Origin: Sinohyriopsis cumingii | Lineage: Eukaryota > Mollusca > Bivalvia > Unionida > Unionidae | Length of the DNA stretch: 64,000 nucleotides | Assembly (NCBI GenBank): GCA_028554795.2 | Contig: CM068835.1 | Location: forward strand, 34,566,901-34,630,900 | Direction of reading: 5' to 3' | In this document: one piece after another, positions 36,290 to 56,122 of the stretch | Numbering within the stretch: the first letter of the stretch is position 1 | Layout of the letters: every line of letters begins with the position of its first letter | Notes under the pieces: model-generated | What the model was told of the DNA's origin: nothing | Seen by the model: only the letters and a program-made list of their open reading frames with translations | Databases searched by the model: none | Translations under genes and position numbers: made by a program

Positions 36290-36621
36290 AGTAGTGAAAG
36301 GGGGCGCTTTACGGACAATGGGAATTAGCATTAAAAACACCCCTGGGTCACTTTACGGACAAGGGAAATTTAACATGGAGAAAAATCGTGGGTCACTTTA
36401 CGGACAAGGGAATTTAACATGGCAATAAATCGTGGGTCACTTTACGGACAAGGGGAATTGAACATGGCAATAAATCGTGGGTCACTTTACGGACAAGGGG
36501 AATTGAACATGGGATTTTTTTTAAAAAATTTAAAAAAAAAAAATTAAAAAAGGGGTAGGCAATTCAAAGACTATCTCTTTTCGAGAAATATGGCTGGCCC
36601 TGAAAAGGGCCTTTGGGTTTT
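36290..36621. repeat. TIR of element 3 (right end of the element)
   Basis: 332 bp, inverse of 55792-56122; by eye the differences are confined to A/T-run lengths. Five iterons with core CTTTACGGACAA lie at about 36301-36513, followed by an A/T tract, TCTCTTTTCGAGAAA and the GGCCCTGAAAAGGGCC hairpin. Confidence 0.95.
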
Positions 36622-36624
36622 CTT

Positions 36625-36999
36625 CTAATTTCTTCTTTTCCTCCACCAAGTTCTTATTTTATCTCCTACACTCTTCTTCTCTTTCTTTTTTTCTTCTCCT
36701 CTTCTTTCTTCCTCCTCTTCTTTCTTCCTCTTTTCATTTTCTTCTTCTTTTTCAATTTTTTCATTCCATTCTCTCATCCTTATCCTTTCCTCTTCATCCT
36801 CCTTTTCCTCCTTTATTTCTTTCAACAGATCACTAATGATTACCTTCATTTTTCGTAAATTGTTTATCTCCATCTTCACTCTATGGGGACTATATGAGTA
36901 GTGATCCTCGTTTAGGTTAACCAACATTTGCTCAAACATTCCTAAATTGTCCATGACGTTTTGCAATTTTTCCATTTTGTTAAGGTGGTTTGACGCCAT
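36625..36999 (-). CDS. Accessory slot 3: charged coiled-coil protein, divergent form
   Basis: 124 aa against 180-197 in elements 1 and 2. The N-terminal 60 residues bear no clear resemblance to those copies. The coiled coil (KEEEEERRGEEKKKEK) and the C-terminal KIRTWWRKRRN correspond to their KIRGWWKKLRS end. The promoter block and position are the same, so the gene body has been swapped or has evolved fast between conserved ends. Confidence 0.55.
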   Translation of the reverse strand: MASNHLNKMEKLQNVMDNLGMFEQMLVNLNEDHYSYSPHRVKMEINNLRKMKVIISDLLKEIKEEKEDEEERIRMREWNEKIEKEEENEKRKKEEEEERRGEEKKKEKKSVGDKIRTWWRKRRN

Positions 37000-37428
37000 C
37001 TTCTTTGTATTCTTTGCAGAATGGTTTGAACAACTAATACTGTGGGTTCTTATACGAAAAGCGCGAACGTGAAGGAAAACATCCCCCTAAAACATAAAAT
37101 GGATCTTACCTAGATGATGACCCAACATCGCGCGGACGTGAAGGAAAACATCCCCTACTTTTTCATTTCATATAATATAACCCAAACTATACTCTCCACA
37201 TTTGCTAAGAAACAATAAAGAAACCCATAATCTACTATTCGCACAAACATACCTTTACTCTTACAAACACAAACACACCAACACATACCCTCACACATTA
37301 AAAAGAGTTAGTGTTTATATTCACACTACTCTACCTACATACATTGGCAAATTGATCGTTATTTCTTTTCTAGAGTATTGGGTAGCCCTGAAAAGGGCTG
37401 TTTTGTTTGGAACTTCATGGACACCTGG
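37000..37428 (-). promoter_or_regulatory. Slot 3 promoter, palindrome and slot 2 hairpins, element 3
   Basis: Promoter blocks are at about 37059-37088 and 37131-37154 (minus strand). Between them is a degraded palindrome (37101-37117, two changes from TGATCTAGGTAAGATCA). The TAGTGT/ACACTA hairpin lies near 37310-37330 and the GCCCTGAAAAGGGC hairpin near 37385-37401. Confidence 0.5.
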
Positions 37429-37767
37429 TTAATGGTGGCACCTTCCAGGCCTGGCGCCACATACACATCTTATCCCCCAGTTACTTTTTACCTTTTGGGG
37501 GGAGAGAGCAGAGGCAGGATATGTCGCTTCAGAATCCCAATTTTCGCTCTCTGGGATTTTGAAATTTCTTCTCTCCTTTTCCTCCTCCTCTTCTTTGTTT
37601 CTTCTTTCCTCTTTATATCTTCTTTCTTCTTCTTCTTTATATCTTCTCTCCTCCTCTCTTATCCTTCCCTCCTCGACAATGGCTTCCGCGGCCAGTTCAT
37701 TTAATATGCGCCTGGCATATTCCAGATGCACATGAAGCTCCAACAGTTTCTCCAGTCTCGTGTTCAT
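37429..37767 (-). CDS. Accessory slot 2: Glu/Arg-rich coiled coil with Cys tail
   Basis: 112 aa. The N-terminal helix and CVCGARPGRCHH end match element 2. The coiled coil is expanded by a repeated EERRYKEE unit. The frame is intact. The fixed ends and variable charged middle repeat the pattern seen in slots 1 and 3. Confidence 0.6.
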   Translation of the reverse strand: MNTRLEKLLELHVHLEYARRILNELAAEAIVEEGRIREEERRYKEEEERRYKEERRNKEEEEEKERRNFKIPESENWDSEATYPASALSPQKVKSNWGIRCVCGARPGRCHH

Positions 37768-38278
37768 TTTTGGTGTTGATCAATCAACAAGGGTAGCTGG
37801 ACTGCCGAACGAGTTTCAATTTATAGTGAAAGCGCGGACGTGAAGGAAAACATCCCCCTAATAACATAAAATTCATCTTACCTAGATCACGACCAAAAAA
37901 AAAACAACAACGCGCGGACCTAAAAGAAACACTCGCTCACTTTTTTATGCTACCCATCACTATTGTAAAATTTTTATAAATCACTTCAATAGACTATCCA
38001 CATACCCAAAGCAATCCAATCTAACCCCAAATCTACACCTCAAACAGCCCAAAAAAAGAAAGAAACATCATTTTAATCTACTATCCACACCAACCTACTT
38101 TATCACTTACAAACACAAACACACAAACACATACCCTCACAATATCTTAATAAAGAGTTAGTGTTTATTTTCACACTACTCTACCTACACACATTGGCAA
38201 ATTAATAGTTATTTCTTTTCTAGAGTATTGGGTAGCCCTGAAAAGGGCTGTTTTTTGTTTTTGCTATGGCATTCTTTT
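37768..38278 (-). promoter_or_regulatory. Slot 2 promoter, palindrome and slot 1 hairpins, element 3
   Basis: Promoter block at about 37830-37858; palindrome at 37873-37889 with one mismatch; TAGTGT/ACACTA hairpin near 38158-38180; AGCCCTGAAAAGGGCT hairpin near 38234-38250. The order mirrors elements 1 and 2. Confidence 0.55.
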
Positions 38279-38641
38279 TTAGTTTCTAAGAATGCGATGT
38301 CCTCTGAGGATAGACTTTCTGGCGATAGGTCTGCTTCTTCGGAAAGAGAAGAAGAATTCTTTGGTGTCGATACGACAATCGACAAAGCCTCTGTCAGCTT
38401 CAGGTTGCTGCTGTTGCTGCTGTTGCTGTTGTTGCTGCTGTTGCTGTCTCTGAAGTCTGTACTTCTCTGTCCATTCTTCTTTCTCCTTGTTCATTTCTTC
38501 TCTGAAGAGCTCTTCTATCAGGTCTTCAGTGATTTTTAACATTCTCACATTCTCTATTTCTTCTGGCTTCGGTATCAGACTGTGTCTGACCCTATGCAAA
38601 TTCACGTAGGCTTCGTTGAGCTTAGCTAGTTTGGAGCACAT
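38279..38641 (-). CDS. Accessory slot 1: poly-Gln coiled-coil protein
   Basis: 120 aa from the ATG at 38641. The Gln tract is shorter (about 15) than in elements 1 and 2; otherwise only a few residues differ. Confidence 0.6.
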   Translation of the reverse strand: MCSKLAKLNEAYVNLHRVRHSLIPKPEEIENVRMLKITEDLIEELFREEMNKEKEEWTEKYRLQRQQQQQQQQQQQQQQPEADRGFVDCRIDTKEFFFSFRRSRPIARKSILRGHRILRN

Positions 38642-38963
38642 CTTCTTAGGAGGATGAGTCGACAATGGATGGCTAGACTGGGAACAACCCGGTTCTTAAA
38701 GTGAAAGCGCGGACGTGAAGGAAAACATCCCCCACACGGTTTTCGAGCCGCAACGTTCATGAGAGGGATAGTAAGAAATGAAAGAGCATCAATCCAACAT
38801 TCTTCTAGCTAAACAAAAGACAAAGGCATTTTTTCTAAACACAACATTTTTTATTCAAAAATCACTTAACACTAAACAACAACAACATTTTTAACAATAA
38901 TCCAACACTATAACATCAAACAATTTTTTTCAAATCACAAACATTTTTTTCTTCAAATACAAC
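38642..38963 (-). promoter_or_regulatory. Slot 1 promoter and poly(A) signal, element 3
   Basis: On the minus strand the promoter block is at 38706-38731. AATAAA (TTTATT on plus, 38850-38855) can end the capsid-block transcript. Confidence 0.55.
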
Positions 38964-39524
38964 CTACCTTAAACAAGGCTGACAACGTTGTGAATTAAAT
39001 TGTGATTTCCACTGTTGGAAATCATTAGGCCATTGATGGACACTACGTTTCCTAGCTTGAGACAAAAGATAAGCATAATGGTCACAAAACCATCGATCTA
39101 CTTTCACATCGTTTCTAGCAGAAGAACGAGGATCAAAATGAGTCACTAAATGTTCTAAGGAATAGCCCAGGCTGCGATGATGCAGAAAATACACACAATA
39201 TTGTCCACACACCAAGGAATCTGTGCCTTGTAATTTCACGTTATTGAATCGGGTGGTTTGAGCATTTCTTCTCATAAAGTCGATGATATCGTCTTCCAAA
39301 GGGGGCAATCCGTACGAATCGAAATATTCCACACAGCCTTCTTGAGGAAAGTAGACGGCTACCCAGTGGGTTCCTGGGAGATGACTGTCGTCCGTGTTGA
39401 TCACGTAAGCTTGATGGTCTTTAGGTTTGCGATGAGGGAGTTCATCTTTAGCACAGACGACGGGATTCCAAGAAGACGTATACGAACTGTGGTTCAAAAG
39501 GTAATAAAGTTCCCAGGTATCCAT
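38964..39524 (-). CDS. Adenain/Ulp1-like cysteine protease
   Basis: 186 aa. His53, Asp69, Gln99 and Cys106 are all present. It starts 31 bp after the preceding stop across an A-rich spacer and is the last gene of the capsid block. This copy belongs to the element with all frames intact. Confidence 0.9.
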   Translation of the reverse strand: MDTWELYYLLNHSSYTSSWNPVVCAKDELPHRKPKDHQAYVINTDDSHLPGTHWVAVYFPQEGCVEYFDSYGLPPLEDDIIDFMRRNAQTTRFNNVKLQGTDSLVCGQYCVYFLHHRSLGYSLEHLVTHFDPRSSARNDVKVDRWFCDHYAYLLSQARKRSVHQWPNDFQQWKSQFNSQRCQPCLR

Positions 39525-39555
39525 TGATTTGTGTGTGTTTTTTTTTTCTTCTTCT

Positions 39556-40053
39556 TCACAGGTAATAATACGTTGTCAATTCGATCCTGACTTTTTGCTT
39601 GAAAATGTCTGACGAATAAACGGTTATTCGTTCTGTTTCCTCACTCTGATTCAGGAGAGCTTCGATACGATGGATCTCTTGAGTGGTTAATGGTGGACAA
39701 GAATGTTCACGCAAGTCTTTATACCACTGGTGCAACACGTCTTCGTTCGAGATGAGACTCCAAGCTTCGTCCAGATACTCGTCCAATTTTTCTTCTTGAC
39801 TTAACATCAAGCATTTATCGTGTTGAATTTGACTGGGATGATCGTTTTGACATCCATAGCAATTTTTCTTGATCAATTCCGTCATTTTGTCGACCAAGTG
39901 TTTGGCAAAACAGGAGACTAAATGGGCTTCTTGTTCTGGCCATCTCGACTTCATCATGACAATTTCTTCGTCTTGGGATTCTCCTTCCACGGTCTCCTCA
40001 CATTCCATCTTTAAAGTTACTCCACTAGGTAAAGAGGGATAACAGTCTTCCAT
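39556..40053 (-). CDS. Conserved Cys-containing Polinton protein
   Basis: 165 aa. The N-terminal acidic segment is intermediate in length between the other two copies. The Cys/His cluster NCYGCQND and QHDKCLM is unchanged; it starts 5 bp after the capsid stop. Confidence 0.7.
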   Translation of the reverse strand: MEDCYPSLPSGVTLKMECEETVEGESQDEEIVMMKSRWPEQEAHLVSCFAKHLVDKMTELIKKNCYGCQNDHPSQIQHDKCLMLSQEEKLDEYLDEAWSLISNEDVLHQWYKDLREHSCPPLTTQEIHRIEALLNQSEETERITVYSSDIFKQKVRIELTTYYYL

Positions 40054-40058
40054 GGCTT

Positions 40059-41372
40059 CTAATAATCTAGAATGACTTCTCTCAAACTGTTGATTTCTAT
40101 GGTATTATCGAATTCTGCATACAGGATGACGTTCACTGTCTCTGGCAGAGGATTTGCAAACTGAAGTTCCACACGAATCTGGCCGGATTTTATAGGGTGG
40201 AAATGTCCCTCGTCGCTGCCTTGGTCTGGAGTGAAATCAAACGCCCACAAAGCATAGCCTCCTGCATAATCTTCGTACGTAATACCGTGACTGGTGTTGG
40301 TTCCTAACTGACCGGTGGCTTCGTACAAGGACAAGTACGATCTCAAGTAATTCTTGTTTTTAAAGTCAGGTTCGAAAGGTCGGGTACACAAGGTCTTGCC
40401 ATCGCGACTGACTTCGATCTTAGACACGTCAAAGTGTTCAAAGTAGAAAGGATTTTTAGCGAAGGCTCCGTTGAAGGCTGTATTCTCGACCATACCAACG
40501 ATCAAACGTTTGGGTAACTGTCCTTGGAATAGATGATCTTCGATCATGGATCGCTGTCCAGCAGGAATGGTGAACGTTTTCACTTCCACTCGTCGTATGG
40601 GATATTTGGCGGTCGTTCTGCTCAACGTCTGACTGATGTCGTTTCCCACTTTAGGTAGCACTTCCACACGGCGTACGTAGAGTCTGGCTTCTAGGATTTT
40701 GGTTTTGTACTCGTCAGCATTACCCAATAAATGGAAAGCGGTACTGCTCCGATTCAGTCTCAGGCGAGCATTCACTCCGTTTAGCAAATATTTCTCTTGC
40801 AACCACATGTCCAAATGCAAACGGTCCATCAGTTCTAAACTTTTGTCGACTCCTTTGATTCTGTCTCTTCGTTCTATAAATCCCGCATTGTTTTTTTTGG
40901 CTGATGGATCAGTTTCGAATGTTTCAAACTCGCCTGTTTCGTCAGCTTCCCATACTACACAGGAATTGAGATGAGTGTTCTTGGCATCTATTCCGTACGT
41001 CAAGAGATTTTCCAGGTAGGCACGATAAGGGTAAGTATCCATGCTGCTACTGACCAGTTTGTTATTCAAGTACAAGTCCACTCCACTGAACAAGGAATGC
41101 ATGAAATTGTTGACGGGAGCTACTGCTTCATCGTCTATAGGACCTCCAGTCTTATCTAGAATTTTGACTTTCAGGTACAAGTAACTGCTATTCAGATCGA
41201 TGTAATCTTCGGGCTGTCCTTTGATTTCAAACTCGATGGGAGCGGAATCGGTCAATGAGGAGACGGGGTGAAATTCCACCCACTGAGATTCTTGCATGGT
41301 CATCATGGTGGGGGGCATGGCAAACAGATCCAGTTCCGTCTTGGAACAAGCGCAAGACTCTCGGTGCATCAT
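40059..41372 (-). CDS. Major capsid protein, hexon-like double jelly-roll
   Basis: 437 aa from the ATG at 41372. The first-jelly-roll signature (YIDLNSSYLYLKVK, NNFMHSLFSGVDLYLNN) is intact. It differs from elements 1 and 2 mainly in the loops at residues ~60-70, ~150-170 and ~300-315, and is closer to element 1 at residue 130 (GIDAKNTHLN). Confidence 0.88.
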   Translation of the reverse strand: MMHRESCACSKTELDLFAMPPTMMTMQESQWVEFHPVSSLTDSAPIEFEIKGQPEDYIDLNSSYLYLKVKILDKTGGPIDDEAVAPVNNFMHSLFSGVDLYLNNKLVSSSMDTYPYRAYLENLLTYGIDAKNTHLNSCVVWEADETGEFETFETDPSAKKNNAGFIERRDRIKGVDKSLELMDRLHLDMWLQEKYLLNGVNARLRLNRSSTAFHLLGNADEYKTKILEARLYVRRVEVLPKVGNDISQTLSRTTAKYPIRRVEVKTFTIPAGQRSMIEDHLFQGQLPKRLIVGMVENTAFNGAFAKNPFYFEHFDVSKIEVSRDGKTLCTRPFEPDFKNKNYLRSYLSLYEATGQLGTNTSHGITYEDYAGGYALWAFDFTPDQGSDEGHFHPIKSGQIRVELQFANPLPETVNVILYAEFDNTIEINSLREVILDY

Positions 41373-41388
41373 TTTTTTGTTCTGTGTC

Positions 41389-41805
41389 TCAATAATCGAA
41401 AACGTCTAAGTCTCGAACGGTTCTTCTTTTCTTGGCCTTTCTCGCTTGAAGTCTGGTGAAAGGGTGTTTTCTTCGTCGTCTCTTTCTGCCTTGTCCTTGC
41501 TGAATGCCTGACTCGGTAGCGTGCAGGGCATTTATAGGTGTGTCTCGTCGGCCCAAAATGTCTTTGCCCGTTTGCAGCAAGACATTTTTGCCTGCCCTCA
41601 TGAAGGCTTCTTTAGGGTTTTGTTTGTCGATGATGACATTTTGGAGAAATTCTTTGCCTTGCGTCAGTGCCGCATCTTTCAAGGCGTGCAATCCGCGTGT
41701 CACCATCGGTTTCAACACCGGGGCCACCGAACGAAAGGCCGATTTTAACATATCTCCTAAACCGTGTCCTCGCTGTCGAGCCTCCCCTCGGTACACTGGA
41801 TACAT
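41389..41805 (-). CDS. Small basic virion protein (pVI-like by position)
   Basis: 138 aa, differing from the element 2 copy at a single residue near the start (GEARQ for GVARQ). Such near-identity, against the diverged loops of penton and capsid, shows strong constraint or recent exchange. Confidence 0.65.
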   Translation of the reverse strand: MYPVYRGEARQRGHGLGDMLKSAFRSVAPVLKPMVTRGLHALKDAALTQGKEFLQNVIIDKQNPKEAFMRAGKNVLLQTGKDILGRRDTPINALHATESGIQQGQGRKRRRRKHPFTRLQARKAKKRRTVRDLDVFDY

Positions 41806-41812
41806 GACTTGC

Positions 41813-42757
41813 TTACGAGTCGTGAGAGAACCGTTTTCGAAAATGGAGTTTCACCGTGACTTTTCCTTTGGTGAATGGAATATTTTGTCCCAGATCTCCT
41901 TTTATAGTAATGTTGACCGTGTCCAAATACGACTTGCTGACCGGCAAATAGTGAGGATGGACAAATTCGCGGTGGACGTGGTAAGTGTTTCCACCTTCCT
42001 CGTCAGCGTTTGCGGCAGAATCCACTTTGAAAGGAATGACACGCAGTAACGGTACGGAGGTGTGTCCCACCACGTTGTATTCCACCACATCGGAATACAC
42101 GAACATCAAATTCAGTCCTTGGTTCAGTTCTACCGGGGTACGAAAATACTGGCCAAAAGACTCGTTGTCGTAAATGATTGATAATTCGGGGGGGTTTTTT
42201 TGTTGTTCTACTCTCTTCCTCATCTCCATGTCACCGCCCAACATGTCAAACAATTCATCACAAAAATAGAAACCCATGATTTTATCCTCAGGAAATTTTA
42301 TCAGGAAGCGACGAGCTGTTTTGTGGTATTCCAGGGTGACAGTTTTGTTCTTGACATTCTTAAAAGCTTCCCCAAACACGCCATTAAACCTGGTGGCTAT
42401 GGTGTTGACCAAATGTTGACCACTAAAATAATACCCTTGGGGAATGAACAAGTGATAGATGGTGTACTTTAGATTTTTTGTGCTAGGGGCTTTATGCTTA
42501 TATTTGCTATGGGTATCCATCCACTGTTGTATTTGTTCGTCATAAACTTCCACATCAAATTTATTTTGATTCACAACGACATTGAGGACTTGGGTCGGGT
42601 GAATCATTTCTACTAAAGCCACTTCCCAATGGGCTTCGTGATCTAAGGGGATGGCTTGAGGTAATTTGGCTGTGTAACAGCACAACGTGTTGTTGGGAAA
42701 CACCTCCATGGAACTGTCACTGGGTAAGGTTAAGTAAAATTGGTTTTGGTGACTCAT
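41813..42757 (-). CDS. Penton (minor capsid protein)
   Basis: 314 aa. The start FYLTLPSDSSMEVFPNNT and the C-terminal half are as in element 2. Residues ~60-170 are clearly different (for example KYKHKAPSTKN and EDKIMGFYFCDELF), so this copy carries another variant of the exposed region. It overlaps the membrane-protein gene by 4 bp. Confidence 0.85.
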   Translation of the reverse strand: MSHQNQFYLTLPSDSSMEVFPNNTLCCYTAKLPQAIPLDHEAHWEVALVEMIHPTQVLNVVVNQNKFDVEVYDEQIQQWMDTHSKYKHKAPSTKNLKYTIYHLFIPQGYYFSGQHLVNTIATRFNGVFGEAFKNVKNKTVTLEYHKTARRFLIKFPEDKIMGFYFCDELFDMLGGDMEMRKRVEQQKNPPELSIIYDNESFGQYFRTPVELNQGLNLMFVYSDVVEYNVVGHTSVPLLRVIPFKVDSAANADEEGGNTYHVHREFVHPHYLPVSKSYLDTVNITIKGDLGQNIPFTKGKVTVKLHFRKRFSHDS

Positions 42758-43164: not shown

Positions 43165-43169
43165 GATGG

Positions 43170-44279
43170 TCACTTCTTTTTATAGTCGATGACTTGCGAA
43201 GCGTCGATCCAAGAATCGAAACTGGGTGGATATCCTTTCCAACGTACTTTGACTTCTTTGACACGTCGTTTGCCCACTTTACGGGTTCTGCGTTCGAGAA
43301 TGCTTTCGATGTCGTACACGTCGTCTTCTTTTTTGGTGACACGTTGTAACTCGGGCAAATAAAACGTTCCTTTGAGTACTTCTCCGTTCATGTCTTCCAA
43401 TTTATAGACGGCAGGATGACGGCCATGTACTCGTCCAGTGACGCGAAACAGTTCGGTCGTCCAGTTAGGTAAGTAACCTTTGTCGAAAGTGCGTTTGGTT
43501 TTGCCAATGCGCACCCAATCTCCTACGGTCAACTCTCCACTTTTCTTGGGGACAGCCCTCGTCGGGGACGTACCGAACAGGCGCTCGAACACCAGCACTT
43601 CGTTGTCGGGAGTCACGTCTTGCGGGGCACGTCCGATGCTTCGATGGTAAGATTGGTTGTACGCTTGCACCAGGTGCGGTAAGATGTCGATGTACTTCAG
43701 AGTGTGGTGATGCGTAAAATATTTCCACATGCGTTCTTTCAAAGTGCGTTGAAAACGTTCCACGATGCTGGCTTTGGTTTCGGGATTCTCGGTGGTAAAA
43801 AAATGAATGTCACGTTTCTTTAATTCTTTTTGGAAAGCTTGGTTCAGAAATTCGGTGCCTTTGTCCGTTTGCCATCGAAGAGGGCGACGACCGCTTTGTT
43901 TCAACACCCGTTGCAGGGCTCGCACTAACTCGCTGCTGGATTTGGAAGTCAAAGGCACGACCCAGGCAAATTTGGAAAAGACGTCGATGACACAAAACAA
44001 ATATTTGTAACCACGATTGTAGCTGGCCAAATGAGAGACATCAGCTAAATCGGCTTGCCATTGATGATCGATACCTTCCACTCGGGTGCGACTTCTGGCA
44101 AACTTGCGTCGAATGGGTTTGTGTAAAGTGTAAGTAGCTTGTTCTTGTAACCATCGTTGCACTTGAGGTAAACGGAGACTTTTCAGTCGCGTTTTGGCAG
44201 CACGATACAATTTTTGAACTCCTGCGTAACCTGCAGGATGCGAGGGATCGTAGTAAATGCTAGCTAAGACTTTTTCCAT
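43170..44279 (-). CDS. int: DDE integrase (rve) with chromodomain, intact
   Basis: 369 aa. Catalytic Asp77 (WQADLADV), Asp139 (WQTDKG) and Glu174 (IVERF), with 34 residues between the last two. An N-terminal HTH/zinc-like region precedes the core. A C-terminal chromodomain (about 314-365, WKGYPPSFDSW) could direct insertion to modified chromatin. The protein cuts and joins element ends and generates the 6-bp duplication. The ATG at 44279 is intact, unlike element 2. Confidence 0.93.
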   Translation of the reverse strand: MEKVLASIYYDPSHPAGYAGVQKLYRAAKTRLKSLRLPQVQRWLQEQATYTLHKPIRRKFARSRTRVEGIDHQWQADLADVSHLASYNRGYKYLFCVIDVFSKFAWVVPLTSKSSSELVRALQRVLKQSGRRPLRWQTDKGTEFLNQAFQKELKKRDIHFFTTENPETKASIVERFQRTLKERMWKYFTHHHTLKYIDILPHLVQAYNQSYHRSIGRAPQDVTPDNEVLVFERLFGTSPTRAVPKKSGELTVGDWVRIGKTKRTFDKGYLPNWTTELFRVTGRVHGRHPAVYKLEDMNGEVLKGTFYLPELQRVTKKEDDVYDIESILERRTRKVGKRRVKEVKVRWKGYPPSFDSWIDASQVIDYKKK

Positions 44280-44300: not shown

Positions 44301-44942
44301 TTAATAAGGCACCCACTCTTGGAAGAGGCTACTCTTTTTCTCTTGGGGTATTTTCTTGGATTGCAAGGCTTTGCGTGTGCGACCGGCAATAGGTGTCGAA
44401 GAGGAGGAGGAGGATGTCTGAGCAGGGGATATCGGTTCTTGTTTCACTTCTGTCTTCACTTCTGTCTTCACTTTCTTTTTCTCTTGTGAGGAAGAAGGGG
44501 TGGCCATCATCTTTTTAATCCATCCAATTCTGGAGGTAGGTGGTGTTGTTAACTTGCGTACTTTTTCTGGTGGAGTTTGAAACCCTTCTTCTTCTTCTTC
44601 TTTTCCTTTTTCTGTCTTGGTCACGGGTACTGGTGGTACTGGTACTGGTGATGGTGCTGGACTTTTCATCAAGGTCTTAAAATCTTTCAGAGTGGGTAAA
44701 GCTGTTTCGTCTAAAGCTTTCTGGTGAAAGAGTTGCAGTCGTTGCAAGAGTTGACCGTACTTTTGCGATTTTTCTGTTTCGGACAAATCTTGGCGATCCA
44801 GCAAGGATTGCAATTCGTGTTGTAACTGGGACATTTCGCTCAAATTGGGATTGGGAGGTAAATGCGGGGTGCGTTGTTCTTGCCACCGATGGTATTCCAT
44901 CCATCGTTTGTAAGGCACTAAAGCTAGTTTTCGTCCTTCCAT
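44301..44942 (-). CDS. Conserved Polinton protein, helical N-terminus and variable tail
   Basis: 213 aa. The first ~105 residues are nearly the same as in element 2. The tail is different: Val/Pro, a Glu run, then Lys-rich and Ser-rich segments. It ends 21 bp before the integrase start. Confidence 0.65.
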   Translation of the reverse strand: MEGRKLALVPYKRWMEYHRWQEQRTPHLPPNPNLSEMSQLQHELQSLLDRQDLSETEKSQKYGQLLQRLQLFHQKALDETALPTLKDFKTLMKSPAPSPVPVPPVPVTKTEKGKEEEEEGFQTPPEKVRKLTTPPTSRIGWIKKMMATPSSSQEKKKVKTEVKTEVKQEPISPAQTSSSSSSTPIAGRTRKALQSKKIPQEKKSSLFQEWVPY

Positions 44943-46440: not shown

Positions 46441-47184
46441 TCATGGGGAGTGAAATGAAGTCGAGGACGGAGACGTGTACAGGACAGGCCCTCCGTCTTG
46501 GCACCAGTGGTGAAACAAGTGGGTACGAAATCGCAAATCCTCGGGGGTCGTAGGTTTCAAATCGACGAGTAAATAGGCGTGTGGAGTTTGAGTGGCATCG
46601 TCGTACGCCTGAGTCAGCCAAGGCGTTCCTAACTGTTTGGCTAAGACTTGCACTTGCGATTTATCTCGAGGGCTTTTAAACAAGACCACGTAATGCGCAT
46701 TGAGACTGATGGTGCGATGGGCTTTACTTTGTTGAAACAAATTTTGGGTGATGTAAACGACACTGGCATTACGGTGATGCCCTTTGCGCGTGAACCACAA
46801 TTTAATTTCTTCTTCGTCTTCTCCTAACATGTCGTCGAAAATGACCAAATGGGTTAGACGGGAGTCAGAGACGATGCCATCGTCTTCTTTAGGAATGCCT
46901 TCCACAAACACGATGGAATCGCCTTGACTTTCACGCAAGAGGCTGTACGCCGATTGCCACTCTTTGTAACACCACACGATCCGTTGAGGGGGTCGATCGA
47001 TCAAATGATGTTTATGTTCGATCAAACGTTTGACGAATTCGGTTTTGCCTGAACCGCTAGGTCCAGCAATGAGCATGTTAAAGGGATGGCGAAGATACAA
47101 AGCCTCCCAACTGGCACGATCTAAGTGTTCGTCGATGACTTTGACAGTAGACGAAGAGGGAGCAGAGACAGCAGAGGTAGCCAT
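46441..47184 (-). CDS. FtsK/HerA-type packaging ATPase (A32-like), intact
   Basis: 247 aa from the ATG at 47184. A longer frame exists, but this ATG matches element 2 and follows TATATAC at a suitable distance. Walker A is GPSGSGKT (~41-48) and Walker B LVIFDD (~113-118); a sensor-like ITQNLF follows. It would drive DNA into the capsid. Its stop comes three codons earlier than in element 2. Confidence 0.92.
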   Translation of the reverse strand: MATSAVSAPSSSTVKVIDEHLDRASWEALYLRHPFNMLIAGPSGSGKTEFVKRLIEHKHHLIDRPPQRIVWCYKEWQSAYSLLRESQGDSIVFVEGIPKEDDGIVSDSRLTHLVIFDDMLGEDEEEIKLWFTRKGHHRNASVVYITQNLFQQSKAHRTISLNAHYVVLFKSPRDKSQVQVLAKQLGTPWLTQAYDDATQTPHAYLLVDLKPTTPEDLRFRTHLFHHWCQDGGPVLYTSPSSTSFHSP

Positions 47185-47268: not shown

Positions 47269-47598
47269 TCAAATATGAACACGAAAGACAAAAATACATA
47301 CAACCCAAATAGTGATGTACAGGAATATAAAACACAGCAAAGTGATCAAAGTGGAATATAAACAAGTGTCTGTACAACATGTTTTGGTTAACCAAGATGT
47401 CCTAGGGACAGTGTGTAATGTTCTTACAGTCTCTACATGAGGTATTGTCACACAAGTGTCCTCCCGGAATGACCTTTCAGGAATGTCCATGACAGTCCTG
47501 TCCTGAAGCGAGTGGTTGTTCTCGGTGACAGGTTCTTCTGGCACCGTCACTAACACAGGTTGAAAAGTAACTTTTTTCCTTGAACAACTCTTGTGCAT
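47269..47598 (-). CDS. Small C-terminal-anchored membrane protein
   Basis: 109 aa from the ATG at 47598. The hydrophobic C-terminal anchor (LLCFIFLYITIWVVCIFVFRV) and the CCTDTC motif correspond to element 2, with two short insertions in the linker. AATAAA (plus TTTATT, 47256-47261) follows at once. Confidence 0.55.
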   Translation of the reverse strand: MHKSCSRKKVTFQPVLVTVPEEPVTENNHSLQDRTVMDIPERSFREDTCVTIPHVETVRTLHTVPRTSWLTKTCCTDTCLYSTLITLLCFIFLYITIWVVCIFVFRVHI

Positions 47599-47818
47599 AC
47601 TGGGCCACTTCTTGGGTCCAAGCCTCAAAACCCCCCTTTTTCCAATCACGAACATCTGTCCAATGAGGGTGTAAGTCACAAGCTACACACACATCGTCAT
47701 ACACGTCTTGGGTCGCTAAAAGTTGACGAATCTTTTTTTCCTGTTGAGGTCGAGAAGTATCCAGATGAAAACGCAAGGCTTTGAACAAAAGGAGTTTTTC
47801 GTGACCATTTAAGGCCAT
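47477..47818 (-). CDS. Unknown helical protein with CVACDLHPHW motif
   Basis: 113 aa from the ATG at 47818. It overlaps the 74-aa ORF by 10 bp and the membrane-protein frame by about 120 bp. The overlap region is kept open in both frames in both elements. Confidence 0.45.
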   Translation of the reverse strand: MALNGHEKLLLFKALRFHLDTSRPQQEKKIRQLLATQDVYDDVCVACDLHPHWTDVRDWKKGGFEAWTQEVAQYAQELFKEKSYFSTCVSDGARRTCHREQPLASGQDCHGHS

Positions 47819-48992: not shown

Positions 48993-49736
48993 TCAATGTC
49001 TCGGTCCTACTAAAGGTAAGTAATGACAATTCGGTGACCATCGAGCATGTTCAACGAAGGCCGAATCTTGCGGTTCCCAGTGGTGAAGTGACACACCGCA
49101 ACTGAAGCACTTGACTTTATCTCCTTCGCCCAAGTAGAAAAATCCGGCTCTGGCTAATTCTTCGGGGGTCGGTCCTCCCAGATACTTTGGCCATTTTCCT
49201 TTGAACGATTGAAGACGATTTTCAAAGTCGCAGTATTCCGACAAACGCACAGGAAACGAATATTCGTTTTTCACAGGTTCGTTTCGATGAGGGTTGAGTG
49301 ACATGGGTAGGAGTTTGCTCAAGGCTGGATGACATCCGTAGGGAGGTAAACGTGAAGGTCGACATTCCCCTTTAAAACGAAACCCAGTAAAATGTCCAAG
49401 AGGACGAGCAGCATCGCTTTCGCATCCCACAGGTTTGACACGCACAGCATCACTTTCCATGACAGGGGTAGGGGAACTAAAGTTCCCATGATGCTTTACG
49501 GCATCGCTCAGGTCACAACGTACAGCATCGGTCCCATCGCAAGGCTCACAATCGCACTCGTCTGCAAACTCCGTTACGCAATTACAATGGTAACCACATG
49601 GACAATCGCAGTTTCCTTCCGGACATTTTCCGTCGCAATGCCTGGGTCTTATCCATCCAGTATTAGTCACACTAGAGAAAGATACAGCTTTTTTACAATC
49701 CCCAAACTGGAACGATGTCTCTTTCAAAGTATTCAT
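48993..49736 (-). CDS. BIR-domain protein with Cys-rich N-terminus
   Basis: 247 aa. The BIR is at about 165-242: FENRLQSFKGKWP, ARAGFFYLGEGDKVKC, FSCGVSL, VEHARWSPNC, with all zinc ligands. The N-terminal Cys cluster (CPEGNCDCPCGYHCNC) is longer than in element 2 and might bind additional metal. No RING. The TATA box TATATAAAAAAG lies inside the 3' end of the polymerase gene. Confidence 0.82.
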   Translation of the reverse strand: MNTLKETSFQFGDCKKAVSFSSVTNTGWIRPRHCDGKCPEGNCDCPCGYHCNCVTEFADECDCEPCDGTDAVRCDLSDAVKHHGNFSSPTPVMESDAVRVKPVGCESDAARPLGHFTGFRFKGECRPSRLPPYGCHPALSKLLPMSLNPHRNEPVKNEYSFPVRLSEYCDFENRLQSFKGKWPKYLGGPTPEELARAGFFYLGEGDKVKCFSCGVSLHHWEPQDSAFVEHARWSPNCHYLPLVGPRH

Positions 49737-49781: not shown

Positions 49782-52700
49782 CTAGGGTTCCTTTTTTATA
49801 TACAGACCAATACCGACGTGACCGTACGGTAAGGTGAAATGATTGGGAAGTCTCACTCGCTTCTGGTACACGATTTGATAGACTTTTTCCAAGGGTCGAC
49901 TGACGATGTGGTGAGTGGGTAAACGTACAATCTTGTTCGGTTGGTAAGTGGTCACTTTAAAGTTTCCATCCTCTCCCGATTGCAAGGCTTCTTTCAATAC
50001 CCCAAAGTTGACCACTCGACTGGTACGATAATTCAGAGTCAGTCCTTTCACTTTGCACGTCGTGTGCACTTCTCCTTGTTTGTCACGGTATTCGTAGCCG
50101 TAATTTTTGGGACCGCCACTGACGAAACTTAGAATCTTGTCGTCGGGATGTTCGTCTGTCCAGGCTCCTAAACGGTCTCCTTCGATGTCAGGGTGATGTT
50201 GAATCGGGTGATGAATGTAAATGCAACTGTCCGTGTCAAAGTACAGGACGCGTTCTTCTAACAGTTCTAAAGCTTCGTACAATTTTAAGCGAGCATGGGC
50301 TGTCACGTAAGCCGCAATGATGACATTTCCAAAAGGGTCGTCTTGTACAAAGTCCAGATCTTCTTCGTAATTGACCAAGATCAAATTCTCTCGAACGACG
50401 TCCACGTGTTTCATGTATTTGGTTTTGTCGTGAATCATCTGGAAGTAGCGGGAAGGTTCTGTCAAATATTCCGTCTTGGGTAAACACGGTCGTTGTGCCA
50501 TTTTACCCCACAAGCAATTTAACATCACTTTGGCAAACGATCGCCTGCCTTCGTTTTTCTCGATGTGGTCTAACGAGATGCCTTCTTGTTCGTAGTATTT
50601 CTCTTTGAATTGTATTTGGTCTTCGGGAGTGTGACACCAGGAAGGATAGCCGCTGGCTTCTTGCTTCAGTTTCAAAAAGGCATCCACGTAGTCAGCGAAA
50701 ATGCCTTTCTGCGTGGGGTCACCCTTGCGGTATTGTTGTGTCTTGGGAAAGTGGCAAATTTCGTACACTTCTAACAGTTGGTATCCCATGTCCAGAGCTT
50801 TGAACAATTCTACGCTGACCCAGGTTCCCGTCAAGGCCCGTTCATCCTGGCTGTGATGGCAAGGTTGGTCTTGGTTGCACGTTTCGGCACAAGTACGACA
50901 CAAGGGAAACATCAGTTTGCCTTGACAATGGTGAGGTAAGACGGGATGGTATAGGTTCGTGGGAGGCAAAACTTTGCACTTGATCAAACCTTCGTATTGT
51001 CGAATGTTTTTCAGGTCGATGTGTTCAGTCAGCAATTGCGGGTGCCCTACAGGAAAGCGACAATATTTGCACACGTAGGGATACAGCGAACACACGTCCA
51101 AGTATTTGATTTCTTCTCCTTTCTCTTCGTCGGCTTGGTACAGCAAACAGGTGGCATTGGTCCTTCCTCCGTACAAACTATCCCTCGGGTTCAGCGGGTC
51201 CATGAACTGGTAACTTTCCACGAGGCGTTTAAACTCGGGATCGGTTTTCATACGGTGATCGTACTCGTGTTCCCACATTTCCACCACTTGGTATCCTTGC
51301 TGTTCTAACTTTAGGCGTCGCTGACAAGTGTCCTGGTACAAGTCTTCCATGGTTCGTTGCAAAAACTGATTTTTAGTGCCACGGTCAGGGTAACAGACGG
51401 GACATCCGTGAAATAAGCAACCGTTAAACTCGTACACGATCTTGGGGTTTTCTAAGTCCCAGCCATCGACCGAATACGTTCCGATGGTCTTTTCGCCTCC
51501 TCCGTTGCGGGCATGCTGAATCCACTTGTCTTCCTTGTCGCACAAGTAATGTAACCAGCGTAGGGCTTTGACCGAGTATTGACGTTTGACAAAGTGGGTC
51601 GTTTGAGGACTGATGACAGCCACGGTCTTTTCAGGCATGAATCGTTGTCGATACACTAAGGAACACGCTTTGGCAATGGTGCAAGCTTCTTTCAAAGGAT
51701 CGACCCCTCCGTGTTCCATGAACAGTTCTCGAAATTTTCCACAGCAACGCCGTAAAATGTCCACGTCGGAACGACAATACTTTAGCATTTCTTCCTGAAA
51801 GTCGAAAGGGTCCGAGGCGTGAATCTGGTACCAAGCGTAGAAAGCTTCTCGTTGTTCGGTACGCATGTTGTCGGGGTCGTAATAGTGAGCCTCGGGTAAA
51901 TGGGGTAGAACGGCGTGTTGGTTGGCTTCCGTATTGAAAAAGTGTGGAAAGTACCCTTTAGCGATTTCTGTCATTCCAAACGTTTTAGGCATTCGACTCA
52001 AAGGCATGGCCAAGTAACTCATCGAATCTTTAAACTGTACTTGTCCCACTTGCATGAAAATGATTTTGGCTCCGTTCAAAGTCACTTTAGGACGCTCGGT
52101 GCCTTGTTCCGTATAGTATCTGAGAAGAAACTGTCCATCGTATCCGGAAAAATTGTGAGCCATCACCGTGGCATGACGATGACAATCTCCGTAACGTTCG
52201 ATGTCCTCTTGGCTCCACGTCTTGTCGATGGGGTCTAAGACCCATTGGGCAAAATCGGCTAACGTGTTGGGTCCCCGAAAGATTTTTTCACGCCCTCCGG
52301 GTATCTTGCTGCAGTGAGGGCAATGACTGAAGATAGGTTCTTGAATGCACTTCTCGCACGCTCGATGAGCCACGCAGAAATTAGGAATGTGAATGCCGGT
52401 TTCTTGCATGCATTCGAAATCGAAAAAGATGAAATTGCCTTTCTTCTTGTGACCGTCCTCTTTCTCTGGTGGGGGTTGGTATTTTTGCACGTAACATTGG
52501 TGTTCCAAGTCCACGATGTGGTGACAAATGTGACATTTTTTCTTTCCTGAACATACGTGTGCCTTGGTATTATTGGTACGTATGCCTTGTCCACACGTAG
52601 GGCACAATCTCAGGAGTTGACAAGCGCATTTCTTCTGTGAACCTTGCGTCTTCAAATGTTGTTGGTAACAGGTAGGGCTGACAAACGTGCGCAGACAAGT

Positions 52701-53837
52701 GGAACAAGGCACTGGTTTTTGCCCTTCGCTCAGACAGGGTGAAGAGGCCAAACATCCTGAGCATTTCGATCCACAATGCTTGTGTTGCTCTCGATTGTTA
52801 TAACCATGGTCACATTTCTCACAATAATAACAGTATCTCAGGAATCCAGTGATACTGGTAATGGTATCGAAATGTTCATCGTGATGATAAAGGTGAATGT
52901 ATTTTCCGTCCTTAAAGTCTTGGCCTCGAAACAACAGAGGTCCGCGCACTTCTTGAGGGTGCACTTTCAAGGTGTATCGTGGAGCTAGGGCATCTTGCAA
53001 TTTTTGCATCTCAGGAATACCACAGGGTGTGTCTTTGGACAGGTCAGCTTGTTGTAACAGGAGTTCTGCTTCGTTTCGTTGTTTGGCTCGGTCGGAACGT
53101 TGAATAGTGTCCCAGGTTCTTTTCCATTCTACCGTGTCGTTCTTGTTGGCATAGGTTCGTCCCACCACGATGGCACGGGCTAAACACATCTGGTCATGAG
53201 GGTTGTTAATTCGGACAAGACTCTTTTTGGTGTTGCGAAGGTCGTCCACCAATAACATCTTTTTGCGTCCTGTCCCTTGAGGAGGAGAGACGTGGGTCAT
53301 GTCCAGTGTGGCTTTACCATCGGTGATGTCAAACTGATCATTAGATTGTTGTACGTGTTGAATCTTGTCCATGACTTTGGAAGCAGTCAATTCTGCAGGG
53401 GTGCTAAACTCGATCCAAACAGGGGATTTCAAACCGTCGTGTTGTATGGAAAGTCTCAAGCGATCGTCTTCTTTGGGTTGACATTGTCGCTTGAGTGCAG
53501 TGAGCAAAGAATCCCACACCTCAGTGATGAACACTTCTGCTTTCTCTAACGGCACTTCAGCCTTGAAATCTTTAAACTTCACCGTGTATTTGTAAGCCGT
53601 GGTTCTAAATTTTCTAGAGGAGCGCTTTTCCGTCTCTCGAATGGAATAGTACTTTTCAGGGTTGACAAAGGGTGATGAACTTGGTTTAGAGGGTTCGGAT
53701 TCTGGTTCACTCATGTCCTCTTCAAAATCACTGGCATGAATTTGTGCCAAGATTTCAGCCCTGGTACGAGGCGATAGATCACGTTTCTGCCTCTTACTTT
53801 CTTCTTCTTTCTTCTCGAATGAATGGGATCGTTTCAT
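49782..53837 (-). CDS. polB: Protein-primed family B DNA polymerase, intact
   Basis: 1351 aa. N-terminal ~300 residues contain no recognised domain. Zinc-like Cys/His blocks span ~330-460 (YCEKCDHGYNN, CSTCLRTFVSPTC, CHICHHIVDLEHQC). The 3'-5' exonuclease has DFE, HNFSGYDGQF and YCRSDVD. The polymerase has DVCSLYP, KVMLNCLWGK and YFDTDS. This domain set replicates linear DNA from a protein primer at the TIRs. The C-terminal codons double as the TATA box of the BIR gene. Confidence 0.96.
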   Translation of the reverse strand: MKRSHSFEKKEEESKRQKRDLSPRTRAEILAQIHASDFEEDMSEPESEPSKPSSSPFVNPEKYYSIRETEKRSSRKFRTTAYKYTVKFKDFKAEVPLEKAEVFITEVWDSLLTALKRQCQPKEDDRLRLSIQHDGLKSPVWIEFSTPAELTASKVMDKIQHVQQSNDQFDITDGKATLDMTHVSPPQGTGRKKMLLVDDLRNTKKSLVRINNPHDQMCLARAIVVGRTYANKNDTVEWKRTWDTIQRSDRAKQRNEAELLLQQADLSKDTPCGIPEMQKLQDALAPRYTLKVHPQEVRGPLLFRGQDFKDGKYIHLYHHDEHFDTITSITGFLRYCYYCEKCDHGYNNREQHKHCGSKCSGCLASSPCLSEGQKPVPCSTCLRTFVSPTCYQQHLKTQGSQKKCACQLLRLCPTCGQGIRTNNTKAHVCSGKKKCHICHHIVDLEHQCYVQKYQPPPEKEDGHKKKGNFIFFDFECMQETGIHIPNFCVAHRACEKCIQEPIFSHCPHCSKIPGGREKIFRGPNTLADFAQWVLDPIDKTWSQEDIERYGDCHRHATVMAHNFSGYDGQFLLRYYTEQGTERPKVTLNGAKIIFMQVGQVQFKDSMSYLAMPLSRMPKTFGMTEIAKGYFPHFFNTEANQHAVLPHLPEAHYYDPDNMRTEQREAFYAWYQIHASDPFDFQEEMLKYCRSDVDILRRCCGKFRELFMEHGGVDPLKEACTIAKACSLVYRQRFMPEKTVAVISPQTTHFVKRQYSVKALRWLHYLCDKEDKWIQHARNGGGEKTIGTYSVDGWDLENPKIVYEFNGCLFHGCPVCYPDRGTKNQFLQRTMEDLYQDTCQRRLKLEQQGYQVVEMWEHEYDHRMKTDPEFKRLVESYQFMDPLNPRDSLYGGRTNATCLLYQADEEKGEEIKYLDVCSLYPYVCKYCRFPVGHPQLLTEHIDLKNIRQYEGLIKCKVLPPTNLYHPVLPHHCQGKLMFPLCRTCAETCNQDQPCHHSQDERALTGTWVSVELFKALDMGYQLLEVYEICHFPKTQQYRKGDPTQKGIFADYVDAFLKLKQEASGYPSWCHTPEDQIQFKEKYYEQEGISLDHIEKNEGRRSFAKVMLNCLWGKMAQRPCLPKTEYLTEPSRYFQMIHDKTKYMKHVDVVRENLILVNYEEDLDFVQDDPFGNVIIAAYVTAHARLKLYEALELLEERVLYFDTDSCIYIHHPIQHHPDIEGDRLGAWTDEHPDDKILSFVSGGPKNYGYEYRDKQGEVHTTCKVKGLTLNYRTSRVVNFGVLKEALQSGEDGNFKVTTYQPNKIVRLPTHHIVSRPLEKVYQIVYQKRVRLPNHFTLPYGHVGIGLYIKKEP

Positions 53838-53971
53838 CTTGAAAGCAAAAAGTCAAATGACTCAAGTTCAAACACCATAAACTACTTTATAGTCATAGCA
53901 GACCAGCGTATATAAAAGGGTGTGTGTCTTGTCCTTTCACTATTCATTTCACTCTCAAGCCGAGCACAACG
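53838..53971. promoter_or_regulatory. Divergent promoter, polymerase / zinc-knuckle gene
   Basis: Plus-facing GTATATAAAAGG near 53909-53920 and minus-facing GACTATAAAGTAG near 53885-53896. TGAGTCATTTGA (minus strand, AP-1-like) lies between the polymerase TATA and its ATG, as in element 2. Confidence 0.6.
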
Positions 53972-54442
53972 ATGGAAGAGACTGACCAGATGGAACGTTT
54001 CGTCAGAGCTTTGCGAGGGGTCATTAGAAAATTCTCTTCAGACCAGCCTACGGACTACTCTCCTTCCTTTAGAGATAAAAGTCAAGATACTTGCTATATC
54101 TGTCAGAAGAAAGGGCATTGGTCTTCAGAGTGTCCAGACCGTCAAAAAAGAAAAAAAACAGGGGATAAAAAAGACAAAAGTCAAGATACCTGTTATTATT
54201 GTAAAGAAAAAGGACATTGGTCTCCAGATTGCCCAAAAAAGAAACAAGAGGAGTCAGAAGAAAAGAGGAATTCTTCAGAAGAAGAGAGGGATTCTTCAGA
54301 GGAAGAGAGGGATTCTTCTGAGGAAGAAAGAAGACAGGTGAAGAAAAAGAAACAGGAGAAAAAAAGAAGAAGGGAAGAAAGCGAGGAGGAAGAAGAGGAA
54401 AAGAGTGTGACGGTGAAGAAATTAAAAAAACAGAGAGACTAA
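53972..54442 (+). CDS. Zinc-knuckle protein with two CCHC motifs
   Basis: 156 aa from the ATG at 53972. The two knuckles (CYICQKKGHWSSEC, CYYCKEKGHWSPDC) are identical to element 2. The SSEEER repeats and the Lys/Glu end differ slightly in number. It is one of only two genes that run against the main block. Confidence 0.8.
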   Translation: MEETDQMERFVRALRGVIRKFSSDQPTDYSPSFRDKSQDTCYICQKKGHWSSECPDRQKRKKTGDKKDKSQDTCYYCKEKGHWSPDCPKKKQEESEEKRNSSEEERDSSEEERDSSEEERRQVKKKKQEKKRRREESEEEEEEKSVTVKKLKKQRD

Positions 54443-54747
54443 ACAAGGAGAAAAGAAGAAATTAATGAACTTTTCTTTATTAAAGTGATGTGTTATAAAT
54501 TGTGAATTGGATTGTAAAAAATGGAGAAAAGAATAAATGAATGATATAAGGTAAGTGTCTTTGAGTTGTGATTTTAAAATAAGAAGCTACACTCACGCAC
54601 TCATACACAGACACGTACTAAAAGGGTAACATGGGTGGGGTTTATTTTATTTTTTTTGAGTTATTGGCAAATTGAAATTGTATTTCTTTTCGAGAAATGT
54701 GGGTGGCCCTGAAAAGGGCCTTTTTTCTTCATGGTGAAAGGGTGAGT
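54443..54747. terminator. Convergent 3' region with hairpin, element 3
   Basis: The GGCCCTGAAAAGGGCC hairpin at 54705-54720 precedes the stop of the minus-strand coiled-coil gene by 28 bp (3' side). TTTATTAAAG near 54475 may serve as poly(A) signals. The rest is A/T-rich. Confidence 0.5.
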
Positions 54748-55323
54748 TTAAGCAATCAACTTTAACTGCCTTATGCCTTTGCCACGGCCAAGGCCTACTT
54801 CTGGACTGCGTAATGTTGATGATGATGATAATGATTGGGTTGAAATCACTAAGGGTGGTACGGTAGGCTTAGTCACAGGGTTGACGTGTTTAGCTCGGGA
54901 AGGTCGTATTCTCTTCGGTCGTGATAAAGAAGTCTGATACATTTGTTTCAGACTTCTTAACTCAGCTAAAATGTCCAACAGTACCGTGACCGTTTGATTT
55001 TCACCCTCTTGTTTCTTTGCTGCTACTTCTTCTTGCTGTTGTTTTTTTCTTACCTCTTCTTCTTGTTGCTGTTGCTGTAGGAGAAAAGCCTGTTCCGCTT
55101 CCTTTTGTCGTTGTATAAATTTCTCCAATTCTTCTTTCTGTCTCTGTCTAAAATTCTCCACTTGCGGTAATGAAGAAGGTAACGAAGGTTCCGGAACAAA
55201 TTCTTGCGAGGAGAGAAAATCCACAAAATCCCAATTCACCTCTTCTGAAAGTAAGTCCGGGTTCCCTTGGGCGGTCTCCCCTGCTGGTGCACCCCAATGG
55301 ATCGTTTTCTGAGTTTCCGTCAT
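54748..55323 (-). CDS. Coiled-coil/Gln-rich protein, intact
   Basis: 191 aa. Residues 60-110 form a Gln/Glu/Arg coiled coil with a Gln run. The C-terminal part is basic with Ser runs (RPKRIRPSRAKHV, SLSSSSTLR) and ends GLGRGKGIRQLKLI. The frame is intact here and broken in element 2. No family is recognised. Confidence 0.65.
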   Translation of the reverse strand: MTETQKTIHWGAPAGETAQGNPDLLSEEVNWDFVDFLSSQEFVPEPSLPSSLPQVENFRQRQKEELEKFIQRQKEAEQAFLLQQQQQEEEVRKKQQQEEVAAKKQEGENQTVTVLLDILAELRSLKQMYQTSLSRPKRIRPSRAKHVNPVTKPTVPPLVISTQSLSSSSTLRSPEVGLGRGKGIRQLKLIA

Positions 55324-55542
55324 GTTGAATCACTGTCGCATAGACTGAATGCACACAAGCGCTAGCGAATCTATATTGACTACGTGACGTCACAGACTGC
55401 TCTCTTCGGATTGGATGCGAGCTGACTGAATTCTGTAACGCGTGTTCGGATTGGTGAATGAACTCAATCCGTTTCAATCCTTTCTGTACCTATAAATAAG
55501 CGCCGTTCAATGCATTGATTCACCTGTTCTCGTCGCTTCAAG
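55324..55542. promoter_or_regulatory. Divergent promoter with CRE palindrome, element 3
   Basis: TGACGTCA at 55385-55392 lies upstream of a TATA-like sequence for the minus-strand coiled-coil gene. TATAAATA at 55491-55498 faces the 77-aa gene, 45 bp before its ATG. The layout matches element 2 although the sequence between has diverged. Confidence 0.55.
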
Positions 55543-55776
55543 ATGTGGACTACAGTTGAGTCATCCACCCTTGTGTCTTCCATGATGTTTCGGACAGACT
55601 TGCTCATGTATGTCCGATCCAAGTGGACCGTTGTCCACAGGACAAACACCAGCCTGTGGATACGTAGGATCTACGTCGAAAGACAAGGATGCCTGAAAAG
55701 AGTGCTGATGTACGGACCAACAGTAAGACGCAGCCTAAGGACAAGAAGAAGACCAATGCGGTGCCATTTATGTTAA
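55543..55776 (+). CDS. Small Arg-rich protein, 77 aa, next to the TIR
   Basis: Basic protein with three substitutions against 7671-7438. The end RSLRTRRRPMRCHLC is strongly basic with a final Cys. It stops 16 bp before the TIR. Confidence 0.55.
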   Translation: MWTTVESSTLVSSMMFRTDLLMYVRSKWTVVHRTNTSLWIRRIYVERQGCLKRVLMYGPTVRRSLRTRRRPMRCHLC

Positions 55777-55791
55777 TGAATACATTAACAT

Positions 55792-56122
55792 AAAACCCAA
55801 AGGCCCTTTTCAGGGCCAGCCATATTTCTCGAAAAGAGATAGTCTTTGAATTGCCTACCCCTTTTTTAATTTTTTTTTTTAATTTTTTTTTAAAAAATCC
55901 CATGTTCAATTCCCCTTGTCCGTAAAGTGACCCACGATTTATTGCCATGTTCAATTCCCCTTGTCCGTAAAGTGACCCACGATTTATTGCCATGTTAAAT
56001 TCCCTTGTCCGTAAAGTGACCCACGATTTTTCTCCATGTTAAATTTCCCTTGTCCGTAAAGTGACCCAGGGGTGTTTTTAATGCTAATTCCCATTGTCCG
56101 TAAAGCGCCCCCTTTCACTACT
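55792..56122. repeat. TIR of element 3 (left end of the element)
   Basis: 331 bp, inverse of 36290-36621. Five iterons with core TTGTCCGTAAAG lie at about 55898-56112. It ends CCCCCTTTCACTACT before the ATAGTA duplication. Confidence 0.95.

Follow-up and report, generated by a model that had tools for sequence, protein, structure and literature searches.

Whether the Polintons, or Mavericks, of animal genomes are transposons or viruses is debated. The hallmark of such elements is a pair of terminal inverted repeats (TIRs) with the ends AG...CT, together with a 6-bp target site duplication (TSD). For vertebrate Mavericks, the portions of Barreat and Katzourakis 2021 (PMC8097293) considered here put the maximum of intact copies in a genome at 38; counting all copies, the genomes named there reach up to 287. 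For the bivalve Mercenaria mercenaria, the portions of PMC8905726 considered here give Maverick contents of 1.69 and 1.93% of the genome (31.4 and 34.5 Mb, in 7,091 and 6,453 pieces). Here we analyze a stretch of 64,000 nucleotides, referred to as the window, from another bivalve, Sinohyriopsis cumingii (Unionidae; GenBank assembly GCA_028554795.2, contig CM068835.1, positions 34,566,901 to 34,630,900 of the forward strand). It contains a complete Polinton, element 3, at positions 36290..56122 (19,833 bp). As judged from its sequence, element 3 is probably a young and complete provirus of an integrating, adenovirus-like double-stranded DNA virus of the Polintoviricetes, near the Eupolintoviridae, with accessory genes that would use the histone mRNA 3' processing of the host. 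The debate becomes directly testable in a single host, because this genome contains dozens of near-identical copies with open polymerases and thousands of relatives.

Element 3 possesses the hallmark in full. Its TSD, ATAGTA, is found on the forward strand at 36284..36289 and 56123..56128, and the TIRs occupy 36290..36617 (plus strand) and 55795..56122 (minus strand), with approximate inner edges. Both TIRs contain five repeats of about 45 bp bearing a short word (TA-CGGA-CAA), and a histone-type stem-loop. A preliminary description of the window, made from the letters alone, had reported the same coordinates, a perfect duplication and the TIRs, all of which were correct on re-check. It had further stated that the TIRs differ only in the length of an A/T run. 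The alignment, identical in 324 of 328 columns, confines all differences to that run, and they amount to slightly more than length, namely three mismatches and one gap. The same alignment of TIRs and TSDs had been proposed as a means of dating the insertion: with no difference over approximately 280 bases outside the run, element 3 taken alone has an upper age limit of roughly 0.5 to 5 million years. Two related elements share the window, element 2 (7068..26979) and element 1, which is cut by the window edge and represented by its right part (1..6472).

Four small genes of element 3, all on the minus strand, are followed by a signal consisting of a 6-bp stem, a 4-nt loop, a 10-nt spacer and a purine downstream element. 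These are sl1 (36625..36999, 124 aa, highly charged and coiled-coil-like by eye), the likewise charged sl2 (37429..37767, 112 aa) and sl3 (38279..38641, 120 aa), and sl4 (54748..55323, 191 aa). Their stem-loops are located on the coding strand, 13-29 nt past the stop codon. With the Rfam model of the histone 3' end, RF00032 (cut-off 34 bits), the copy after sl1, which lies inside the left TIR together with its downstream element (36571..36616), scores 35.6 bits and the copy after sl4 (54681..54725) 41.2 bits; those after sl2 (37359..37404) and sl3 (38209..38254) score 31.0 bits each, below the cut-off, with E 2e-5. A fifth, outward-facing mirror copy is present in the right TIR (55797..55842, plus strand, 35.6 bits), and three of the five stem-loops thus exceed the cut-off.

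Matches to RF00032 occur in all three elements of the window. If stem-loop, 10-nt spacer and purine element are required jointly, the window yields 12 sites compared to none in 100 shuffles. Nine of them lie 13-36 nt past the stop of an open reading frame (ORF) that is open on the same strand. Of the other three, one is found past sl4 of element 2, a gene that is interrupted there, and two are mirror copies in TIRs. We also drew 20 random 10-kb stretches from four chromosomes: all three stretches that contain element DNA had matches above the cut-off, and the other 17 had none. Counted genome-wide, in or out of elements, the exact signal of sl2 and sl3 occurs 11,957 times (control 0) and an exact 34-mer of the inner TIR 11,587 times (control 0), giving 23,544 occurrences of the two exact forms. 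A chance origin of the stem-loops was rejected on the grounds of the shuffles and the reversed-pattern genome controls, which gave 0. The stem-loops might instead be elements of the TIR DNA or of packaging, such as origin hairpins, that are histone 3' ends in appearance only, an idea that draws on their presence in both TIRs and on the right-TIR copy, at which no listed ORF ends. We regard it as improbable, since the copies of sl2, sl3 and sl4 are far from the TIRs, on the coding strand and 27-36 nt past stop codons in three elements, and since the stem-loops share with the host the 10-nt spacer and the purine downstream element.

This likeness to the host is seen in a histone repeat (L063) with four genes, which are H3, H2B and H2A by their N-termini and a fourth taken as H4 by its place. 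All four carry the stem and 10-nt spacer of the element, and three of the four contain CTAGAAAAGA. The core histone genes of the host are arranged in tandem repeats of about 8.3 kb, most of which are found on C14 and on contigs with numbers higher than 300. Within the stem, pair 1 varies between G-C and A-U by joint changes on its two sides. A U7-like pattern had five hits in the genome compared to one for the control; a U7-like TCTTTTCT-N-AATTTGTCTAG is present at C226:476850 and C15:68753217, and it is complementary to a portion of the downstream element common to host and Polinton.

Predicted polyadenylation signals, and not histone-type ends, are found after the core replication and virion units: AATAAA occurs 3' of the protease gene in elements 1-3 and 3' of the replication unit in elements 2-3, and none was found near the ends of sl1 and sl2 of element 3. 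A TATA box precedes the ATPase gene in elements 2 and 3. The literature searched gave no report of histone-type 3' ends on Polintons; in the portions of PMC11071296 covered the word "histone" appears twice, both times for histone-like proteins, and it is absent from the covered portions of PMC8097293. The histone motif was not found in viral contigs of IMG/VR, where records very near this genome may be left out.

The remaining gene content, analyzed on the basis of 21 ORFs, is that of a complete Polinton, with all of the following genes on the minus strand unless stated otherwise. Family B DNA polymerase (PolB; 49782..53837, 1351 aa) matches PF03175 (DNA_pol_B_2, E 5e-42) and contains the motifs DVCSLYP and YFDTD. 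An NSxYG-type motif gave no pattern match, and with regard to an OTU-like N-terminal domain Pfam at E 0.01 returned DNA_pol_B_2 alone, no sensitive comparison having been made. The integrase (43170..44279) combines an rve core, in which all three catalytic residues announced by the preliminary description were found (D77, D139, E174), with a C-terminal chromodomain (PF00385, residues 322-366). The packaging ATPase (46441..47184, Pox_A32) has the Walker A motif GPSGSGKT. The major capsid protein (40059..41372, 437 aa) is assigned by the names of its homologues: there are 1191, and several among the 120 listed are called F54H12.2-like, in Mercenaria, Crassostrea, Saccostrea and Ostrea, a name which we take to mark Maverick capsids. 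By sequence it has no match among the solved structures in PDB. A putative penton (41813..42757, 314 aa) is proposed on account of its position. The adenain-like cysteine protease (38964..39524) had been credited with a full catalytic set; an H-D-Q-C motif is visible by eye, and the family match to Peptidase_C5 (E 0.008) stays below the cut-off. That the frames of PolB, integrase, ATPase, protease, capsid protein and putative penton are open was borne out.

Two further genes have recognizable domains. A BIR (inhibitor-of-apoptosis) protein (48993..49736, PF00653, E 1e-23) adjoins PolB and is perhaps a captured host gene, and a CCHC zinc-knuckle protein (53972..54442, plus strand, PF00098, E 1e-13) is transcribed divergently. 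The named protein relatives are mostly from bivalves, with some from Branchiostoma and one from a metagenome-assembled genome of Thiodiazotropha, which lives in clams. Two integrases from JGI and ENA sources (P0001, P0002) have 92% and 90% identity to that of element 3, and all relatives of the putative penton at 60-70% stem from JGI, ENA or lgn.

The host assembly comprises 2.9 Gb in 1138 contigs. Matches to the element are mainly on contigs C1-C19 (115-193 Mb each where shown), for which reason we take the host to have a chromosome number of about 19, a number also named in several papers on bivalve genomes, among them in the abstract of the one on Saxidomus purpuratus. An exact search of the genome with the terminal 29-mer of element 3 gave 84 occurrences (reversed control 0). 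These ends form 41 plus/minus pairs, the window copy included, and two lone ends. Forty pairs span 19.7-20.7 kb and one spans 12.2 kb. All 11 pairs examined, ten fetched and the window copy, have perfect and mutually different TSDs. Related copies at other locations, a point on which the preliminary description had made its case depend, are therefore present, and its proposal of a candidate active element or endogenous virus is supported by recent copies, perfect and different TSDs and open genes.

The copies with this end are young. Outside the A/T run the 11 pairs show five mismatches (2, 2 and 1 in three pairs) in approximately 3,000 aligned bases, 29 bases of each TIR pair being fixed by the search pattern. 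In three of the 11 the two TIRs are of unequal length (gap columns: 24, 90 and 92), owing in two or more of these cases to an extra repeat. Assuming neutral rates of 1e-9 to 1e-8 per site per year, the mismatches would correspond to a mean age of roughly 0.1 to 1 million years. The wider family is larger and older. If each element retains two of the inner-TIR 34-mers, their 11,587 occurrences amount to about 5,800 copies or more. Among the first 100 34-mers listed, 70 are in plus/minus pairs 13.9-20.9 kb apart, compared to three minus/plus and one same-strand neighbours within 12-22 kb. Ten of 35 such family pairs were drawn at random: seven have a common terminus, all seven with perfect TSDs, and three are indeterminable. 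These pairs are older on average: outside A/T contexts their alignments show 37 mismatches and 3,142 identities, a single pair accounting for 16 of the mismatches. Element DNA makes up 9.7% of the 200 kb covered by the 20 random stretches mentioned above, a figure with a wide error.

Two readings of these counts that do without recent multiplication have to be weighed. An assembly artefact, be it duplicated haplotypes or collapsed copies, could be suspected from the three of the 41 pairs that lie on contigs numbered above 19. It is hardly credible in view of the TSDs: in 19 of all 22 pairs examined the terminus could be determined at both ends, and the TSDs of these 19 are all perfect and differ from each other. 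The second reading is that of an old, decayed family in which element 3 has stayed intact by luck. It can refer to the damaged copy L009 and to element 2, which carries in-frame stops in PolB (two), in the ATPase gene (one) and in a small terminal ORF (one), has some genes matched in part only, and whose terminus occurs at 12 genome ends, forming three pairs and six lone ends. The earlier view of element 2 as decayed holds with regard to these stops; the decay is mild, with a perfect TSD (GATGCT). For the subfamily with the element 3 end, decay by age was rejected, given that 41 pairs stand against two lone ends, that the TIRs are nearly identical and that 31 of the 34 scored PolB copies are open, and we consider the reading as a whole very unlikely.

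Among the 34 best-scored PolB copies, element 3 included, 31 are free of stops and three have one stop. All 150 scored ATPases are full length, stop-free and at the top score, and all 111 scored integrases are full length and stop-free, 109 of them at the top score; both lists hold best matches only, which biases them towards intact genes, and ties were taken arbitrarily from C1-C7. Nine ATPase copies (eight listed and element 3) encode one protein by nine DNA sequences that are 2-10 synonymous differences apart, and stops occur in a few of the ORFs that adjoin them. In eight copies whose ATPases are identical, a 128-aa ORF at 47269-47655 exists in about three types (approximately 97, 68 and 50% identity).

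Purifying selection acts on the core genes. In the comparison of elements 3 and 2 dN/dS is 0.02 for sl3, 0.04 for the integrase, 0.14 for protease and ATPase, 0.25 for the major capsid protein and 0.26 for PolB. Values of 0.4-0.7 were obtained for the penton candidate, the BIR protein, sl4 and several unassigned ORFs; comparisons with other copies gave up to 0.87 for the penton candidate (with L012) and up to 1.04 for the zinc-knuckle protein (with L009). The dS between elements 3 and 2 is about 0.45 at 40059-41372 and 44301-44942 and about 0.1 in many neighbouring genes, a difference which suggests module exchange between element lineages.

These values bear on whether element 3 is a plain self-synthesizing transposon that amplifies in the germline without particles and retains virion genes by recent ancestry alone. 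Thousands of copies in one genome would suit such an element, as would the fact that free virus was not found in IMG/VR. What argues against it is that purifying selection acts on capsid protein, ATPase and protease in comparisons of elements with a dS of 0.05-0.46, and that the putative penton varies most in residues 41-200, between two near-invariant ends, as an exposed surface might. Strong purifying selection on core genes is also given for the Mavericks of cyprinid fish in the portions of PMC8097293 considered here. On balance we think a plain transposon rather unlikely, while it is the most serious of the alternatives.

For the provirus that we favor instead, the following course can be sketched. 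Replication would be protein-primed and start at the iteron-bearing TIRs, the ATPase would package the element DNA into capsids, and the rve-chromo integrase would insert it, thereby making the 6-bp duplication. Transcripts would have two types of 3' end, polyadenylated for the replication and virion units and histone stem-loops for the four accessory genes. Host SLBP and U7 would cleave the accessory transcripts without polyadenylation, and their expression could thereby be coupled to S phase, or else to the oocyte and the early embryo.

Several observations weigh against this provirus reading. As to the signal, element 3 has five stem-loops of which two stay under the Rfam cut-off, no RF00032 match is present in L001-L008, all of which come from the middle of the element, and covariation is limited to one of six stem pairs, the other five being invariant. 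Both sl3 and sl4 of element 3 are also followed by AATAAA 70-80 nt past the start of the stem-loop, so that polyadenylation could be used there. As to the host factors, U7 was not found by Rfam, with 65 of 801,960 candidates scored and no working positive control, and the search for SLBP had no match, nor had its positive control. As to the virus, searches of IMG/VR with the capsid protein, a capsid profile and an integrase profile revealed no relatives, records near the window possibly being omitted there. Finally, one of the three copies hit at random, L009, is damaged by a stop in PolB and a missing stretch.

A further hint towards the organization of the family arises from the TIR repeats. 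In the frame TA-xxxx-CAA they carry a 4-base word, which is CGGA, GCGT, GCCT, CGTA, GCGA or GGGA depending on the element (GCGT in element 2); in L064 it has, by eye, the odd form GGGTCT. Within one element the word is largely uniform across all repeats of both TIRs, with mixed words in L068, L074, L078 and L009. Among best matches, 29 of 34 PolB genes are located inside the 41 copies with the element 3 end, compared to 11 of 150 ATPases and one of 111 integrases. For this reason PolB and the element 3 end seem to travel together while the other modules are exchanged. The closeness of PolB to one TIR, and thus simple physical linkage, may explain part of this. With more reserve we propose the following possibility, which we hold to be somewhat less probable than its opposite: a still-transmissible double-stranded DNA virus, locked to S phase and early development by accessory genes that use the histone 3' pathway, with strains told apart by TIR words tied to PolB, in the manner of plasmid incompatibility groups, and with exchange of the integrase and virion modules from strain to strain.

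In the surroundings of element 3 a tRNA-Pro (CGG) gene lies between elements 2 and 3 at 29640-29712. Tandem repeats flank element 3, with a 60-bp unit at 35766-36119 and a 51-bp unit at 60710-60984; the 60-bp unit includes ATAGTA, the target sequence of element 3.

If it is true that a mobile element uses histone 3' processing, this would represent a new link between viral gene expression and the cell cycle, and this genome would contain more than 23,500 exact histone 3' ends of virus type. RNA sequencing with polyA selection would then miss the accessory transcripts, and this might help to explain why the expression of Polintons is rarely noticed.

In comparison with known systems, element 3 shares with Polintons/Mavericks and the Eupolintoviridae (adintoviruses) PolB, the rve-chromo integrase, ATPase, a candidate protease and a candidate major capsid protein, TIRs, a 6-bp TSD and a length of about 20 kb; the C-terminal chromodomain of the integrase, a trait of the Eupolintoviridae, is present. 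It differs from both in its histone-type 3' ends, which we did not find described in the literature searched. Intact ORFs, TIRs, 6-bp TSDs and purifying selection are common to the vertebrate Mavericks, as far as the portions of PMC8097293 considered here go. Compared to the copy numbers given there, this host has 41 copies of one end type, counted by ends, and a total of roughly 5,800 or more. Mercenaria mercenaria is likewise a bivalve with abundant Mavericks, according to the covered portions of PMC8905726, which describe neither their anatomy nor their 3' signals. With the replication-dependent histone 3' ends of metazoans (RF00032) the signals of element 3 have in common the 6-bp stem, the 4-nt loop, the purine element at fixed spacing and the position just past the stop codon. 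The stems seen in the host histone repeat all begin with G-C, whereas those of sl2 and sl3 begin with A-U, and in contrast to the metazoan histone ends the signals of element 3 adjoin non-histone genes of a mobile element.

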